The notes below the pieces were generated by a model. It was not told the DNA's origin. It did no database searches and saw only the letters and a program-made list of their open reading frames with translations. From Acidobacteriota bacterium (lineage in GTDB: Bacteria > Acidobacteriota > Vicinamibacteria > Vicinamibacterales > UBA8438), in assembly GCA_011523485.1 (NCBI GenBank), contig WTGR01000240.1, positions 1 through 13,495 of the forward strand: a stretch of 13,495 nt of DNA. Reading direction: 5' to 3'. Below, piece by piece: positions 4,617 to 13,495 of this stretch; positions within the stretch are counted from its first letter, which is position 1; each line of letters begins with the position of its first letter. A program made the position numbers and the translations under genes.

Positions 4617-6751
4617 GCGCCGAGGCGGAACGCGATCATCTCGCTCGCTTCGCCGTCACCGAGCGACGCCCGGATCTCGAGGATGTACTCGCCGGGCGGC
4701 AGGAACGCCGGCGCCAGTTCCACCTGGCGGGAAACGCCCCCGTCCTCGGCCGTGCGAACGTCGAGCGGGAATACCGCGTCGCCGCCCCGGTTCAGCAGGT
4801 TCGCCTCCAGATCCGGCGCCGCGTCGCCCGGCGCGTAGACGTCGAACCGCAGGAGCAGGCGGTCGGTGCGGCGGAAGTTCCGCGATACGGTGGGAGGCGC
4901 GTTCCAGTCGGCGACGAGCGTGTTGAACTCCAGCGCATTCCGCGCGCGCACGAAGTAGGGCGTGCTCAGGACGACGTCCGGCCCGGTGAAGTCCGGAATG
5001 ACGATCTCGTCGCGATCCCGATCGAGCACCTCTCCCGCCTCGCCCTCGATGGCCAGGTTCATCTGCATGGTGCCGGGATCCGCCTCGAACTCCACGCGCG
5101 TGACCGGGGGCGCGACGGCCGCCGCCGCGCGACGGCTGCGCCTGCGGGTCGTGCCGCGGCCCGAGGAACGGGTCTGCTCGGGCACGCGACCCCGAAAATA
5201 GGCGCCGCCGGTGTCTCCCATGGCGGTCACGAGAACGCGCGACGCGTTGTCCCGCCGCCCTCGCGACTCGGTCGGCTCCCAGGCGAAGGTGACCCGCGTC
5301 CTGCCGTTCTCCGCCCGCGACGTGCCGACCCAGGTGCGGACCAGCCGGCCGCGGCGCGGCTCGGCCAGCGCGGCCAGCGCGACGTCGACCGCCTTGGGAG
5401 GCTCGTGGGCGCGGGTCGTGAGCGACCGCTCGACATCGCGCATCGTGACCGCCCAGTACCCCTCGCGGGCGCGCACGCGCAGGCCCGGACGCTTCAGGCG
5501 CACCTCGATCTCGTGAAACTCCCCGTCGGTCGGCGCGGCGATCGAGTTGTAGCCGAGCAGGTAGTAGCCGCTCGCGTCGTCCAGCATCTGCTGCAGGCCG
5601 GGCCGCAGGTCGTTCTGATTGACTATCGCCCGGCCGCCGGTCTCCTCGGCCAGCACCCGCAGCGTGTCCTGCGTGAAGCGCAGCGTCCGCTGATCGGTGC
5701 GATAGCTGATCTGCGGCTGATCCATGTCGAACTCGAAGGCGGCGAGGCCGCGCGGGTCCACCGAGTAGACCGACGCGTTGAAGCGGCTGGCGGTCTCGAT
5801 CACGCGCCGCAGATCCTGCATCATCGCGCTCCCCTCGAAGAACGACATCGTCTCCTCGAAGGGGTTGTCGCCGGCGAACGGATCGAGCACCTGCGGATTG
5901 ACGTTGGGATCCGCCCGCAGATCCGCGACCTGGCTGCGCAACTGCGGCGGCACGTAGTAGGAATAGCCCTCGCTGACGAGCAGCACGGACTTGCGACCCT
6001 CGCGAAGTCCGCCCAGCATCGTCATCAGCCCGCGCAGGGCCGACAGCGACACCTCGTTCCGGACCCGCTCGACGACCTCCGTCGGATACATGTTGTAGCG
6101 CGCCTCGTACAGGTTGCGCACCTCGTACTCGTACTTGACCCCCTCGAACCGCCGGATGGCGTCGATCACCGCGTCGTGATCGCGGGTCAGGCGCACGTCC
6201 GACACCGGCATCAGGGGGTACATCACACCGACCAGATCGGTCGGAATCAGGTCGTTCTGGATGAAGTCGACTAGCATGCGCCGGGCCCGGATGCTGTTGC
6301 CGTCCCGCACGTGGTAGTCGTCGAGGAAGATCACGAAGACGCGAATGTCCGGCCGCGACGCGGCCAGTTGCTGATCCGACCGCGTCACCCCCACGCTGGT
6401 CAGCGGCTCGCCCGAGAGCTGCGGCGTCGGATCGACCTGGACCACCTGGAACGAGTCCACCGTCTGCAGGACGCCGTCCTCGTACACCTCGAAGTCGTCC
6501 TGCGTGAGATCGAACACCGGGTTGCCGTCCTCGTCGGTCACGAAGGCATCGACGCGGACGTAGTTGATGCCGCTCCGAAAGACGGGGACGCTGCCCTGGA
6601 GGTCGGCGGTCTCTCCGGGCGCGGTGGCGTCCGTTCCCTGGGAGCGGGGCTCGGACTGCGGCTCGGCGGCAGGCTGGCGCTGCCCGGCGTAAGCGGACAC
6701 CATCAGCAGCAGCCCGACACACAGAAAGGCGGCGATCCAGCGTGTATTCAT
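4613..6751 (-). CDS. Secreted VWA-domain protein (VWFA-related Acidobacterial type)
   Basis: 712-residue exported protein of unknown function. It has a clear signal peptide: MNTRW, a hydrophobic core at residues 6-20, and a probable cleavage after AYA at 22. A Pro/Glu/Gln-rich linker follows. A beta-rich lead-in (about 56-105: [32 protein letters not shown]) is typical of the Acidobacterial VWFA family described as TIGR03436. The VWA fold covers about 135-425. Its metal site is degenerate: [10 protein letters not shown] stands where DxSxS would be. It includes [18 protein letters not shown] (252-269), [10 protein letters not shown] and [14 protein letters not shown] family-typical YYLLGYNS and REGYWAV follow. 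The C-terminal third is beta-rich with an Arg/Ser-rich stretch. The ATG at 6751 is preceded five bases away by GAGGT and begins the signal peptide; a longer frame upstream is antisense to the dehydrogenase and is not coding. It overlaps the mutase gene downstream (GTGA) and heads the minus-strand run. No direct functional link to the mutase is known. Confidence 0.93.
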
Positions 6752-8121: not shown

Positions 8122-8138
8122 GATAATATGTCCGCGTG
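8122..8138 (+). promoter_or_regulatory. -10-like element directly ahead of a GTG start
   Basis: GATAAT at 8122-8127 matches the -10 consensus at five of six bases and stands out in otherwise GC-rich DNA. Transcription would begin about seven bases further on, at roughly 8134-8136, where the GTG start of the ATPase/nuclease gene lies (8136). No ribosome site is present between the box and the start, and no -35 match is visible at 16-18 bp spacing. If used, this would give a leaderless or nearly leaderless transcript. Confidence 0.4.
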
Positions 8139-9683
8139 CCCAGACGCAAGTTGCCCATCGGCATCCAGACGCTCCGCAGGATTCGCGAGGACCACTGCTA
8201 CTACGTCGACAAGACCGCCTACATCGCACGACTGGTCGATGAGGGCACGCACTACTTCCTCTCCCGCCCGCGGCGCTTCGGCAAGAGCCTGTTCCTGGAC
8301 ACGCTGAAGGAGCTGTTCGAAGGCAGCGAACCGTTGTTCCAGGGACTGGACGTCCACGGCGGCTGGGACTGGTCGAAACGTCATCCGGTGGTGCGGCTCG
8401 ACTTCAGCGGCGGCAACTTCCGCAAGCCGGGGTCCCTGGAGGAGCACGCAACCGCACAGATCGAGGACATCGGCAGGCGGGCCGGCATCGGTCGGGGCGG
8501 CGCCGGGAGCGCGCCGGTACGGTTCCGGCGGCTGATACAGGCACTGTGCGAGCATGCCGGCCGCCGCGTGGCGGTCCTCGTGGACGAATACGACAAACCC
8601 ATACTGGACACGCTGGACGCACCGGACGTCGCGAGGGCCAACCGTGACGACCTGCGCGGCCTCTACGGGACCATCAAGGCCTGCGACGCCCAGGTGCAGT
8701 TCACGTTCCTTACCGGTGTGAGCAAGTTCTCGAAGCTGAGCCTGTTCTCCGATCTCAACAACCTCACCGACATCACCCTCGATCCGGACTACTCGGCGCT
8801 CTGCGGCTATACGGAGGCGGACCTGGACGCCGTGTTCGCAGCGGAACTGCCGGGACTGGACCGCGACGAGATCCGCGACTGGTACAACGGCTACAACTGG
8901 CTGGGAGACGAGCGCGTATACAACCCCTACGACATCCTTCATCTGTTCCGCACCCGCCGGTTCGAGGCGCACTGGTACCGGAGCGGGACGCCGGCCTTCC
9001 TGGTCGAGACGCTGACCCGCCGGGGCGTGGAATCGACGGCGCTGGAGAACCTGCGCATCGGAGACGCCAGGCTCGACGCCTTCGACGTGGGCGCCGTCGG
9101 CACCGAGGCGCTGCTGTTCCAGAGCGGCTACCTGACGATTCGAGACGCCGAGCGCCAGGGCGGACGCACCCTGTACCGGCTCGGATTTCCGAACCGCGAA
9201 GTGCGGCAGAGCCTGAACGACAGCCTGTTGGACCACCTGCTGCCCGCGCCGAGGCGGGAAGAGAACGGCGTCCGGCTGCTGGAACTGCTGCGGGCGGACG
9301 ACATGGACGGCCTGGAGGCGTTGTTGAAGTCGCTGTTCGCCGGCATTCCCTACGAATGGCATACCCGGAACGACATCGCCCGCTTCGAGGGCTACTACGC
9401 GAGCGTGTTCTACTCGTACTTCGCCGCACTCGGCCTGGACATCGTGGTCGAAGACAGCGGCAGCCGCGGCCGGCTGGACATGGCCGTGCGGTTCGCCGGC
9501 CGGGTGTATCTGTTCGAGTTCAAGGTGATCGAACAGGCGCCGAAGGGCGCGGCGCTGGCGCAGTTGAAGGCGCGGGGCTACGCGGACAAGTATCGCGGCC
9601 CCGGACGACAGATACGCCTGACCGGGGTGGAGTTCAGCCGCGAAGCGCGCAACATCGCGGCGTTCGAGACGGAACGATGCTGA
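8136..9683 (+). CDS. AAA-ATPase-like / PD-(D/E)XK nuclease-like protein (PF09820 + DUF1703 type)
   Basis: 515-residue full-length member of a widespread, often multicopy family with an N-terminal AAA-ATPase-like domain and a C-terminal PD-(D/E)XK nuclease-like domain. The N-terminus KLPIGIQTLRRIRE...YYVDKT is the family's usual opening and supports the GTG start at 8136. The nucleotide-binding loop is the family's variant RPRRFGKS (44-51). Walker B is VAVLVDEYDK (145-154), followed by FLTGVSKFSK (191-200), where a sensor-like segment is expected. WYNGYNW (249-255) and YNPYDIL (262-268) are family hallmarks. The nuclease-like core shows D448 (GRLDMAV), E461-x-K463 (FEFKV) and QLKARGYADKY (477-486). 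The catalytic residues are therefore present. The biological role is unknown; the family is often found in variable genome regions and may act on DNA. It stands alone on its strand, beside the remains of a restriction-like island. Function beyond the domains is not claimed. Confidence 0.92.
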   Translation: MPRRKLPIGIQTLRRIREDHCYYVDKTAYIARLVDEGTHYFLSRPRRFGKSLFLDTLKELFEGSEPLFQGLDVHGGWDWSKRHPVVRLDFSGGNFRKPGSLEEHATAQIEDIGRRAGIGRGGAGSAPVRFRRLIQALCEHAGRRVAVLVDEYDKPILDTLDAPDVARANRDDLRGLYGTIKACDAQVQFTFLTGVSKFSKLSLFSDLNNLTDITLDPDYSALCGYTEADLDAVFAAELPGLDRDEIRDWYNGYNWLGDERVYNPYDILHLFRTRRFEAHWYRSGTPAFLVETLTRRGVESTALENLRIGDARLDAFDVGAVGTEALLFQSGYLTIRDAERQGGRTLYRLGFPNREVRQSLNDSLLDHLLPAPRREENGVRLLELLRADDMDGLEALLKSLFAGIPYEWHTRNDIARFEGYYASVFYSYFAALGLDIVVEDSGSRGRLDMAVRFAGRVYLFEFKVIEQAPKGAALAQLKARGYADKYRGPGRQIRLTGVEFSREARNIAAFETERC

Positions 9684-9795: not shown

Positions 9796-10652
9796 TCATG
9801 CGCGCGCTCGGACCGTGCAGTGCACCCGGCTCGCGTCGACGCGGAACTCCGGCGCCGGATGGCCGGCGGCACGCAGGAGCCGGCGCGCCGCCGGGATGCC
9901 GAACCCGTACCTCTGCACCATGCCGAGCACGCGCATCGCCTCGGCGAGAATCGGATTCCGATAGTCAACGACCCCCGGCTGCCCGAAGTTGCCGGCGTTG
10001 ACCACGCCGTACGGACCGCCGGGACTGCCGATCTCGATGCGATCGTCGAACCAGTACACGTGCGTAGGCGCGTTCGTGTCTTCGTAGGTCCGGTGCATGA
10101 CCGCGTTCCGCACGAGTTGCTGCACGGCGTCCAAGGGGTACGTCGAATCACGGATCTCGACGGGCCCGGACAGGAAATCGACCGCCGTGCGGTTGTGGGC
10201 GATGAGCTTGTCGTCGAGCCGCCGCACGACGTCCGCGATAGCGCCCCGGCAGACCTCCGAATCCGCAACGCGGTCGCCGAACTCGGTTCCAGCAACCCGG
10301 AGAAACTGCGCGTACGCGCCGGGAAGAAAGTCCTGCGGTCGCTTCCCGAGAACCAGAATGCCGCCGACGGTCGGCACCGGGTCGTCGACCGAGACGATCA
10401 TCTTGGCCGCGGCCAGCCGCTCTTCCGTACTCCGGTCGTTGCCGGCCAGCGTCTCCGCATCCACGGCCGCCGGAAGATAGTCCTCCTCGAAGCGCCGCAG
10501 ACTCATGTCGGCGAGACGCGCCCGCGGCGCCCGGCACGCATCGAAGTGCGGGTCTCGATGCCGTCGCTTCTCGTTCAGAATCCGTTCGTCCTGCGCGCTG
10601 GCGTGGGCGCGTAGCCCGTCCGAATGCGGAGCGAAGCCAGTCGACTCGGTGG

Positions 10653-10656
<4 letters not shown>
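9796..10656 (-). pseudogene. AlbA_2/RecG-like ATP-binding protein, N-terminal domain missing
   Basis: C-terminal two thirds of a protein whose family normally begins with an AlbA_2 (Schlafen-like) domain of about 130 residues. Homology starts at about DERILNEKRRHRD (near 10590) and is continuous to the stop at 9796. It includes LRRFEEDYLPAAV, VGGILVLGKRPQDFLPGAY, then the GHKL-type ATP-binding region (HATPase_c_4): QLVRNAVMHRTYEDTNAP, FDDRIEIGSPGGPYG, NFGQPGVVDYRNPILAEAMRVLGMVQRYGFGI. Sequence upstream of about 10600 does not resemble AlbA_2. Numbered from the GTG at 10656 the remnant has 286 residues; an internal ATG at 10506 is the other possible start. The GTG overlaps the stop of the methyltransferase remnant (GTGA), probably by chance. 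Related proteins are found near restriction and defence genes and may act in transcription control. I read this as a truncated gene; a shorter functional protein cannot be excluded. Confidence 0.83.
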
Positions 10657-11397
<741 letters not shown>

Positions 11398-11416
11398 GGG
11401 TGCGGCTCTTCTTCGT
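11398..11416 (+). repeat. Left terminal inverted repeat of the IS
   Basis: GGGTGCGGCTCTTCTTCGT, an exact reverse complement of 12481-12499. After one mismatch the next three bases (GAC) also agree, so the repeat is 22 of 23. Confidence 0.95.
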
Positions 11417-11539
11417 CGACGCCGAACAGGGGCTTCTGGGGCCTCTGGGAGCTTCTGGAGGCGGCACTCGGGAGACGTTATCTGACCCGTCCGAAGGCGT
11501 GGTGGGAGGGATGGCGAGGAGGGGTGCTGTCCGGCAGTA

Positions 11540-12205
11540 CTACTCGATCAGCACATCGCTGGGCGTGGGAACGCGCCGCTGCTCCGCGCTTCGTGGGGAG
11601 TGCCGGCACGCATCAAGATCGTGACTGGCTTGTAGCGGAAGCTTCAGAACCGCCGCGGCTTCAACCAGACGCCAGCGTGCGCGCGTCAACTCCATCCGAT
11701 CACGGATCACGCCGATGCCACCGGCGGCGGTCGGACACAGGCGTCGCCTGTTCCGGCGTCGGCCCGTTGGACGATGATGTGCAGTACCACCCCGTGACGT
11801 CGACGTCGTACACGGCGGCGGTCGCGAGGTCGAGCGGCGTCTCGGCGCCACCGATGAGCGCGTCAGGCGAGCAACCTGCACTGTCCCACAGGTCGTCGTC
11901 TCCGGGTGGCCTTCAGGCACGCGCCGCTGCGAGCGCTCCATGACATCGACTTCGTCGGTTCCCTCCACCGGATCGGCGGCCTCCGCCGGGCTGTTGCGTT
12001 GCTCGCGGTGTCCCTGCAAGAGCTTGTCCATCAGCTCCTGGCCCAGTCGGTGCAGCTCCCGTTCCAGGTCGCTCTCACTCATCTGCTGGGCTTCGCGCGA
12101 TGCAAGGTAGGCTGTGGCCTCGGCGAAGGCGGCTTCAGCCGCCGCATACGGCGTCTGCTCGGGGGAAGAGGCACTGGGAACACTGGGAACCCTGGCTCGC
12201 ATCAT
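11540..12205 (-). pseudogene. ISKra4-family transposase, catalytic middle deleted
   Basis: 221-codon open frame made of the two ends of an ISKra4-type transposase of roughly 450-500 residues. Residues 16-114 match the family's N-terminus: EQTPYAAAEAAFAEATAYLAS, ESDLERELHRLGQELMDKLLQGH, a Glu/Ala-rich GPVEG-like stretch, then ETTTCGTVQVAR where relatives have ETTFGTVTVTR. Residues 166-199 match the extreme C-terminus: VIRDRMELTRARWRLVEAAAVLKL and ASHDLDA, the block after the family's GVIEGACRHL. The roughly 300 residues between, holding the DDE catalytic site, are missing. The join (about 115-165) is Arg/Thr/Ser-rich and reads like out-of-frame sequence. Near the end the family's HEAREQRRVH can be recognised only by switching frames (CACGAAGCGCGG then GAGCAGCGGCGC), so small frameshifts are also present. 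The ATG at 12205 has a good ribosome site (GGGAGGG, 12219-12213). The product should be inactive. Confidence 0.85.
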
Positions 12206-12480
12206 CGCTCAACCCTCCCGCAACCCCCGCTTCGCATGATCGCCACCACAGCCATCGCAGAGATGCCTTCCTTCCCAAGACACGCTACCAGAGCGCCTGG
12301 TGAATGTCCAGGCCGGCGCGCCGACGGGGCACGGACCCGAAGCGCCAAGCGGATTCAGCCGCGCTACCCGCGCGAAAGGGAGCCGATGGACGCTTCGCCC
12401 TACGCCTGACCCCCCGCAAACGACCCGAAAAGGCACCGTCTGCGAGCGCAAACCCCTATGAATAGGCGCAAAAACGGTCC
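12206..12480 (-). other. IS upstream region, non-coding
   Basis: About 275 bp between the right inverted repeat and the transposase start. A short frame here (12209-12562 on the minus strand) has no recognisable protein and crosses the inverted repeat, so I do not call it a gene. The only recognisable contents are a promoter candidate and the ribosome site of the transposase. Confidence 0.5.
12282..12310 (-). promoter_or_regulatory. Candidate transposase promoter
   Basis: On the minus strand TGGACA (12310-12305, five of six matches to the -35 consensus) is followed after exactly 17 bases by TAGCGT (12287-12282, a weak -10). This lies about 77 bp before the transposase ATG at 12205. Confidence 0.4.
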
Positions 12481-12499
12481 ACGAAGAAGAGCCGCACCC
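12481..12499 (-). repeat. Right terminal inverted repeat of the IS
   Basis: Plus strand ACGAAGAAGAGCCGCACCC, the exact reverse complement of 11398-11416. It marks the transposase-upstream end of the element. Confidence 0.95.
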
Positions 12500-12508
12500 G
12501 TAGCGGTT
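12500..12508. repeat. Target-site duplication GTAGCGGTT, right copy
   Basis: Identical to 11389-11397 and directly adjacent to the right inverted repeat. Together with the left copy it fixes the insertion point in the methyltransferase linker. Confidence 0.95.
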
Positions 12509-13495
12509 CCAGGGGATGAACCGTTCCCGATGGCAACTCCGTCGATGCTCTCGCCCGTCCAATCAACGGCCCCCAGAAAACTTCCAGTTCCATTGAGAAG
12601 CGTGTTCAGCTCGGCGTAGTCCCACGTCATCGGGATACTCTGTCGGGCGAAGGTGTTGCGCGTTGAATCTCGCTCCGTGAACCACGTACAGATTGTCGAA
12701 CCTCGGTCCGCGAGTTTCGACAGCGCGAACGACAGATACACCGCTACCGCCTCGGCATACGCCGTTGCGCCAGTGCCGCCGTCCCGCAGCGGTCGGTCGT
12801 CGTCGGGGAATCCGGCCGCGACTGCGTCGCGCCAGACGCGCTCCGTCGCCTCGCTCACCAAGTCGGAGAAGGTCGTCAGGGCGACGAGCTGGCGCCGTGT
12901 GAACAGATCGCCCCAGGTTGACAACCCGTATGGCACACAGGTCCCGCCGGTCAGGCGCGCCGGCACATCACCGTCAGGGCACCAGTCGGGAACTGCGGTT
13001 CGGGCGGTCTCTTCGTGCTCTCCAGTCGGCGCCAGATAGACGCGACCACGATCGCCCGCCGCCACGACGGCCATGAGCCGGGCGCCCATCCGCTTCGCCC
13101 GCCCCTCCGCCTTGATGTATTCGCCTGTGATCGGCGAGCCCGATACCAGGCACCGAAAGTTCGCGCCGCGGGACGGTTTGGTTCCGGCCTTGGCTGCATC
13201 GAGATTGGGCGGCGCACCGACCTTCACCGCGAATCGATACCTACTCCCCTCGATCGCCGGTTCGACGTACGCCTCCTTGCCCTTCTTCGTCGACAACATG
13301 AACGTCGACGCGAGCGGTACGTCCACATCTGCAAACGCCGGGTTCGGGCTCTTCACCGTCCGCGCCCAGAGCCACGCAATGACAGTCAGCTTCCGGCCAC
13401 GGTAGGGCTTCAGATCGGGCCGCTCGCGCACCATGTCCGGCGTGATCTCGACCGGCGGGTACAGACGGCCGATCCGTTTCTCCGCCTCGTCGCGC

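Follow-up and report, generated by a model that had tools for sequence, protein, structure and literature searches.

In some lineages, hmaB, the gene for the methylase of the Hma anti-phage system, is probably a cassette gene that is switched by site-specific inversion, and the insertion sequence (IS) element present in the DNA analysed here would then lie in the unjoined, silent copy of that gene. The evidence for inversion is comparative throughout, with much of it coming from draft assemblies and none from reads or from within one strain.

Insertion of an IS element into hmaB

The window, i.e., the whole stretch of 13,495 nucleotides that was analysed, shows only an unjoined copy of hmaB, interrupted by the IS element, and one copy of the putative crossover site. 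The features of this region are, from right to left:

12500..13494, minus strand: 5' part of the hmaB cassette, whose start codon lies outside the window (PADLOC HmaB on the spliced product; tblastn)
12500..12508: right copy of the target duplication, 9 bp, identical to 11389-11397
12481..12499, minus strand: right terminal inverted repeat, 19/19 against 11398-11416
11398..12499, minus strand: 1102-bp non-autonomous element of the ISKra4 family, a deletion derivative with transposase remnants on the minus strand
11398..11416, plus strand: left terminal inverted repeat GGGTGCGGCTCTTCTTCGT, 19/19 against 12481-12499
11389..11397: left copy of the target duplication GTAGCGGTT, identical to 12500-12508
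10728..11397, minus strand: 3' part of the hmaB cassette, from the IS to the breakpoint, including the DPPY motif (PADLOC HmaB on the spliced product; tblastn)
10716..10740, minus strand: inferred crossover site, ...TACACCCGCTAC followed by GGGCGG..., where homology to full-length HmaB stops
10653..10727, minus strand: foreign in-frame tail of 24 residues after the breakpoint, GRSWANLTGVSPASSGSSTQRAVA, then a stop
9814..10068, minus strand: HATPase_c_4 domain, within the gene for an ATP-binding protein that follows the tail (Pfam PF13749, E 1e-16)

A sequence-only reading of this DNA had described the insertion as base-exact, and this is borne out by the element termini, which match at 19/19 positions (22/23 when extended), and by the identical 9-bp flanks. 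In particular, a 19-mer end with at most three mismatches is found at only two sites in the window, with 0.01 expected by chance. Joining the flanks with one copy of the duplication yields a single open minus-strand frame of 576 residues, from 13494 to the stop at 10653, which reads ...SSPGTATQADAGSQLL...STDPPYYDN..., and excision thus restores the frame as had been proposed. The spliced product was then compared with its homologues by a search in which 8000 candidates were scored, all with E ≤ 0.001, the best 120 being listed and fetched. Among these 120, coverage of the spliced query is mostly 96-99%, with the lowest values at 88% (P0046) and 95% (P0066). The alignment is continuous across the splice junction, which is crossed without an insert in 7/7 aligned homologues, and the 1.1-kb segment was not seen as normal coding sequence among the homologues, an outcome set beforehand as speaking against an insertion. 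Perfect ends and a perfect duplication are consistent with a recent insertion, and they carry no date. By itself, such an IS is ordinary.

The interrupted gene is hmaB, as the spliced product is recognized by the PADLOC HmaB profile (PDLC00660, E 5e-262), with residues 1-553 on profile positions 230-782 of 967. The IS position corresponds to about residue 591 of the homologue P0005, between the second variable block of the protein and the STDPPY motif (607). HmaA and HmaC, both present in the genomes G320 and G188 discussed below, were not among the few window proteins scanned, the window ending inside hmaB, and no recombinase was seen within the window. By eye, the left part of the window carries housekeeping genes. 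The plus strand at 8136-9683 encodes an AAA-ATPase_like and PDDEXK_9 protein (PF09820, PF08011) whose gene converges on the hmaB flank; by eye, the homologue P0009 has a tail resembling the antisense of the 3' end of a relative.

Identity and kin of the element

Judged by its sequence, the element is an internally deleted, non-autonomous member of the ISKra4 family. Its transposase remnants correspond to parts of the transposase of a relative on the stretch L011 (JAPOVI, Acidobacteria):

11864..12190, minus strand: N-terminal part, residues 4-124 of the relative (tblastn, 58% identity, E 5e-23)
11793..11858, minus strand: residues 352-375 of the relative (tblastn, 67% identity, E 8e-4)
11492..11734, minus strand: residues 467-548 of the relative, with the frame interrupted (tblastn, 44% identity, E 1e-10)

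The window element has nothing that convincingly matches residues 125-351 and 376-466 of the relative and therefore lacks the complete transposase of an autonomous element; the transposase ORF of the window matched 0 NCBIfam families. The relative on L011 has the same 19-bp end together with an open transposase of 556 residues that passes the NCBIfam ISKra4 model NF033572 (335.7 bits vs a cut-off of 205). The terminal repeats are common to the intact kin, as the 19-mer is exact in L011, where one end was found, and has one mismatch at both ends of three copies in G001 (CATQHX). A whole-genome search of the latter showed that these three 2784-bp copies are identical, with 0 mismatches in each of the three comparisons, and that all three copies having both ends (3/3) carry their own 9-bp duplication, the size seen in the window; a fourth copy (L035), without a right end, is outside this count. 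Relative to the G001 copies, the window element misses three internal stretches, while the rest is 72-76% identical. Since its transposase is deleted, an intact relative must have acted in trans, a step that we infer. The intact G001 element (L032-L034) also has, ahead of the transposase, another open frame (about 360 aa) that we take to resemble DUF4338/DruA, and a large part of this region is missing from the window derivative.

An exact scan of genome_contigs with the 19-base end returned 19 stretches, ten of which are in the MAG JAJEFC (Vicinamibacteria), three in CATQHX (Vicinamibacterales) and one each in JAJEFD (a Dehalococcoidia bin), JAPOVI, a Deltaproteobacteria bin, Sphingomonas hominis, a Methanomassiliicoccaceae bin and a Planctomycetales bin. 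DNA similarity reaching further into the element is found only in L011 and in L007 (CATQHX); the remaining stretches share 21-31 nt at the end or nothing, although those of JAJEFC are on contigs cut off some 120 bp into the element. No close match that could be a second copy of the 1102-bp derivative was found among the 19 genome_contigs stretches, and the searches of viral_contigs (0) and plasmids gave none. The IS end lies about 120 bp from the contig edge in the ten JAJEFC contigs and in one Dehalococcoidia-bin contig with the same bin prefix (L002-L005, L009, L010, L012, L013, L016, L018, L019). In JAJEFC the IS is a high-copy element that breaks assemblies, and the Dehalococcoidia contig of JAJEFD is perhaps mis-binned or the result of a transfer.

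Among known groups the element is closest to the ISKra4 family of insertion sequences (PMC3942029), its terminal repeats and 9-bp duplication being like those of the intact G001 kin. The window element differs from these kin in size (1102 bp vs 2784 bp), three internal deletions having removed most of the transposase, and from some elements of the group, which insert upstream of promoters (PMC3942029, same text), in that it lies inside a gene.

A recurrent breakpoint at the end of the hmaB cassette

The IS aside, the hmaB copy of the window is incomplete at its 3' end, as the YTRY motif (residue 552) is followed by 24 foreign residues and 185 profile positions are absent. Its match ends at position 782/967 of the HmaB profile, as does that of cassette A in G320. 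The 120 best homologues were classed by whether BLAST found in them the 196-residue C-terminal domain of P0005. The domain is present in 94/120, and 25/120 stop right after GPGMAVYTRY or a close variant of it. The one unclassed homologue, P0066, lacks the motif and by eye breaks at the same codon. Among the 94, the domain match ends early in four (P0018, P0033, P0076, P0113); among the 25, the tails of P0002 and P0024 may belong to frame-shifted or clipped full-length genes, so that 23/25 broken copies are clear. The tails after the breakpoint are mostly unrelated to each other, with a few in common by eye (P0011/P0015/P0044; P0012/P0021). At the DNA level, the break follows ...TACACCCGCTAC in the window, in G025, in G026 and in one contig of G028.

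The apparent decay at the 3' end of the methylase gene is thus probably an exact, recurrent breakpoint (10727/10728 in the window), and random decay was rejected on account of the recurrence of the same codon in 25/120 homologues. The proposed knockout of a DUF1156 methyltransferase stands as far as the interruption of a DUF1156-type gene is concerned; that the gene worked beforehand does not follow, as this copy also stops at the recurrent breakpoint. The same evidence bears on the simplest alternative, namely that the IS recently knocked out a functional DUF1156 methylase and that the 3' end is missing through unrelated decay. Perfect ends, a perfect duplication and a frame open across the splice are what this explanation expects, but it leaves unexplained both a loss at one codon in so many homologues and the 185 further positions of the full HmaB model, and we consider it distinctly unlikely.

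Broken and intact copies can be closely related. When the 120 homologues and the window were compared over the last 300 residues before the codon, five broken/intact pairs scored at least 0.9, four of them 0.96-0.99, the score being identity less gap costs. The broken P0085 and the intact P0022 both lie on contigs of 16,260 nt, and this equality in size makes it very probable that they share one contig.

Two side observations concern the tails. G056 was tried as a further case of the breakpoint and rejected, because its contigs C54 and C21 terminate, by eye, in either end of an unrelated insertion that carries a CTAG duplication. The insertion (L071 start / L077 end) has ends resembling CAGCCCGTGGCTAAA and, again by eye, splits hmaB three codons beyond the crossover codon. 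The tails of P0012 and P0021 contain the peptide GRDSNTRPSGP or GRGSNTRPSGP, which we presume could be encoded by a reversed tRNA T-arm; the silent flank in these two cases may be a tRNA gene.

Paired cassettes around tandem recombinases

The whole locus is found on one 728-kb contig in G320, in the order cassette A (minus strand) without the C-terminal domain, the recombinases Int1 and Int2 (plus), cassette B (plus) fused to the domain, HmaC (minus) and HmaA (minus). Cassette B runs to HmaB profile position 959 and cassette A to 782. The two cassettes share a perfect 77-nt inverted repeat that ends at the crossover, while they align otherwise in two blocks of 75.5% and 81.2% identity, the stretch between which does not align. 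As a rough guide, real genes being more uneven, simulation of 2400 nt at 80% identity (5000 trials) gave a longest exact run of 30 on average and 66 at maximum. The least similar 20-residue blocks of the pair, in P0005 numbering, are 521-540 (11%), 421-440 (20%), 581-600 (29%) and 561-580 (35%), followed by 221-240 (40%) and 81-100 (46%). Elsewhere, pairs occur in which block 1 (361-450) is changed but block 2 is conserved.

Parts of the same arrangement recur in other genomes. When 193 genomes belonging to the class of G001 were searched with P0002, 45 had matches, mostly distant ones; the C-terminal domain was matched in 11/17 genomes. Two tyrosine recombinases (Pfam Phage_integrase, E 1e-16 and 4e-21) separate a pair of divergent hmaB cassettes on contig C174 of G188, where the end of the contig truncates one of the cassettes. 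A lone C-terminal domain opens contig C33 of this genome, which has 55 nt in common with the end of C174 and continues with HmaC and HmaA. An identical 55-nt cassette end in G028 leads to the C-terminal domain on C60 and to another tail beside HmaC on C30. G024 has one joined and one unjoined cassette, and in this genome an hmaB 5' end lies next to the same recombinase pair. No C-terminal domain was found in the genomes of G025 and G026, both with broken copies. Between the G188 cassettes, beside the recombinases, lie an RHH antitoxin-like and a PIN toxin-like gene (L069:4987-5781 and 2427-2783, respectively), the PIN match being under its curated cut-off.

These arrangements also weigh on the idea that the codon is an attachment site at which different integrative elements insert, separating hmaB from its C-terminal domain by insertion rather than inversion. 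Different tails after one fixed site, with tyrosine recombinases nearby, would suit it; however, in G320 and G188 the recombinases lie between divergent hmaB copies, on their 5' side and not beyond the break, and the repeat is inverted with both of its ends in hmaB, which makes this explanation quite improbable.

A third possibility is ordinary homologous gene conversion in which the broken copies serve as donors, the two recombinases being bystanders. The longest identical run between the G188 cassettes, 257 nt around the DPFAGGG motif (L069:1737-1993, 6210-6466), lies away from the crossover, so that homologous exchange also acts; likewise, the 3' halves of P0022 and P0085, on their contigs of equal size, are near identical. 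Gene conversion fails to account for a single exact breakpoint followed by different tails, or for the recurrence of HmaB contig sizes among Int1 contigs reported below, with its enrichment for broken copies, and it is unlikely.

Distribution of the recombinase pair

A recombinase search of 396 genomes of the phylum found ten with E ≤ 1e-45, including G320, and in an Int1 search of 17 genomes the close pair occurred only in G188 and G024, the other 15 giving distant or partial matches. Four of the five Int1 loci with at least 58% identity in the genomes searched adjoin hmaB, each with the close recombinase pair (G188, G024, G320, G543); the fifth, in G833, has no hmaB on its 4.8-kb contig. In other phyla, Int1 at E ≤ 1e-90 was found in one of the 301 genomes searched for G006 (G833) and in 0/297 of the G004 set, an empty answer that is no evidence either way. 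Among the best 120 of 4959 Int1 relatives at E ≤ 0.001, contig sizes equal those of 10/120 listed HmaB proteins, against about 0.14 expected from a density estimate, although a size match on long contigs is no proof of adjacency. The size-matched contigs are enriched for broken hmaB (6/25 vs 4/95, Fisher p 0.005).

A role in hmaB for every tandem integrase pair is ruled out, as pairs or single genes of 37-46% identity lie on the stretches read without hmaB. Such distant integrases are found on C182 and C211 of G188 and in G494, G281 and G523; on the two G188 contigs (L092, L093) they form additional tandem pairs of tyrosine recombinases, with 41-45% identity to the hmaB-linked Int1 and no hmaB on the contig. 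As 94/120 homologues are joined and the close pair occurs in only 2/17 genomes, the switch would be a property of some loci only.

The proposed inversion switch

Under the preferred reading of site-specific inversion, two divergent cassettes, each extending from the start codon to YTRY, would lie on either side of two tyrosine recombinases in tandem. The whole segment would be turned by recombination between the inverted sites at the cassette ends, and its orientation would decide which cassette is joined to the single C-terminal domain. Such an inversion would change the target specificity of the methylase rather than only turn it on or off. Indeed, the cassettes differ most in internal blocks, at about residues 361-450 and 510-600 of P0005, and it is this variability that suggests a change in specificity. 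The HmaB structure model has a mean pLDDT of 56 and is poor outside about 841-990 (the C-terminal domain) and N-terminal helices at about 51-90 and 111-160.

The window would be the left end of such a segment in its unjoined state; its cassette reads from right to left, as does cassette A in G320. By analogy, one would expect the recombinases and the joined second cassette to the right of position 13495. Because the G320 copy that ends at the same codon is the unjoined member of a cassette pair, the IS most likely sits in a silent, unexpressed hmaB cassette, which it would inactivate with consequences only after an inversion. For the window's own genome, a plain deletion at the site is possible.

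A tentative and less likely extension of this scheme is that hmaB may be a combinatorial shuffler with two sites, in which a site at YAEAVGVYL would split blocks 1 and 2, the YTRY site would join block 2 to the C-terminal domain, and two recombinases would serve the two sites, so that two cassettes could give four methylases. In G320, perfect inverted repeats of 77 nt and 70 nt lie at the YTRY and YAEAVGVYL places, respectively, and both cassette contigs of G024 start at the YAEAVGVYL site. P0022/P0085 and P0086/P0098 are near identical from about residue 510 on and different in block 1.

Relation to known systems

Inversion of methylase-specificity genes is already known for type I systems, and the Hma/DUF1156 case is apparently unreported in the literature searched. 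PMC4948785 describes invertible type I hsdS loci such as Spn556II of Streptococcus pneumoniae with PsrA and HvsR of Mycoplasma pulmonis, where the genes contain inverted repeats (15, 298 and 85 bp). Like the locus proposed here, these combine inversions among copies of a methylase-specificity gene, a tyrosine recombinase and changed recognition domains. They differ in that a separate type I specificity subunit is shuffled, whereas here it would be the methylase HmaB itself, from an Hma/BREX-related system in which there are two tandem recombinases and the joint precedes a C-terminal domain.

The Hma system, a relative of Type-1 BREX, comprises the HmaA helicase, the HmaB methylase and the DUF499 ATPase HmaC (PMC8565338 and PMC12839542), all three of which are present in G320. 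The locus is unlike the systems in the texts consulted, which mention no cassette pair. In its main text, PMC12839542 uses none of the words inversion, recombinase, inverted, integrase, truncated or phase variation, with phase-variable occurring once, in its reference list, and the available parts of PMC5608340 and PMC9674854 hold nothing bearing on an Hma/DUF1156 switch. No report of an Hma or DUF1156 inversion switch was found in the open-licence literature, outside which most subscription journals fall.

The BREX/Pgl methylases offer a further likeness, as the activity of a defence methylase varies between cells. In BREX, Goldfarb 2015 is said to have reported a recombinase together with inverted duplicates of pglX. 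The route of BREX phase variation given in PMC6326788 is a homopolymeric tract in brxX.

Significance for Hma defence

Hma has been described as a very widespread candidate defence system found in 26 phyla. If hmaB is switched by inversion, some lineages would change both their DNA mark and what counts as foreign, as type I systems do. Such a switch would also account for many "truncated" DUF1156 genes in assemblies, and for some contigs whose sequence ends at one codon. A shuffler with two sites, if true, would be unusual as a defence system whose restriction partner must follow a switched methylase. An IS in a silent cassette would be tolerated, its effect being to narrow the switch while leaving the defence in place.
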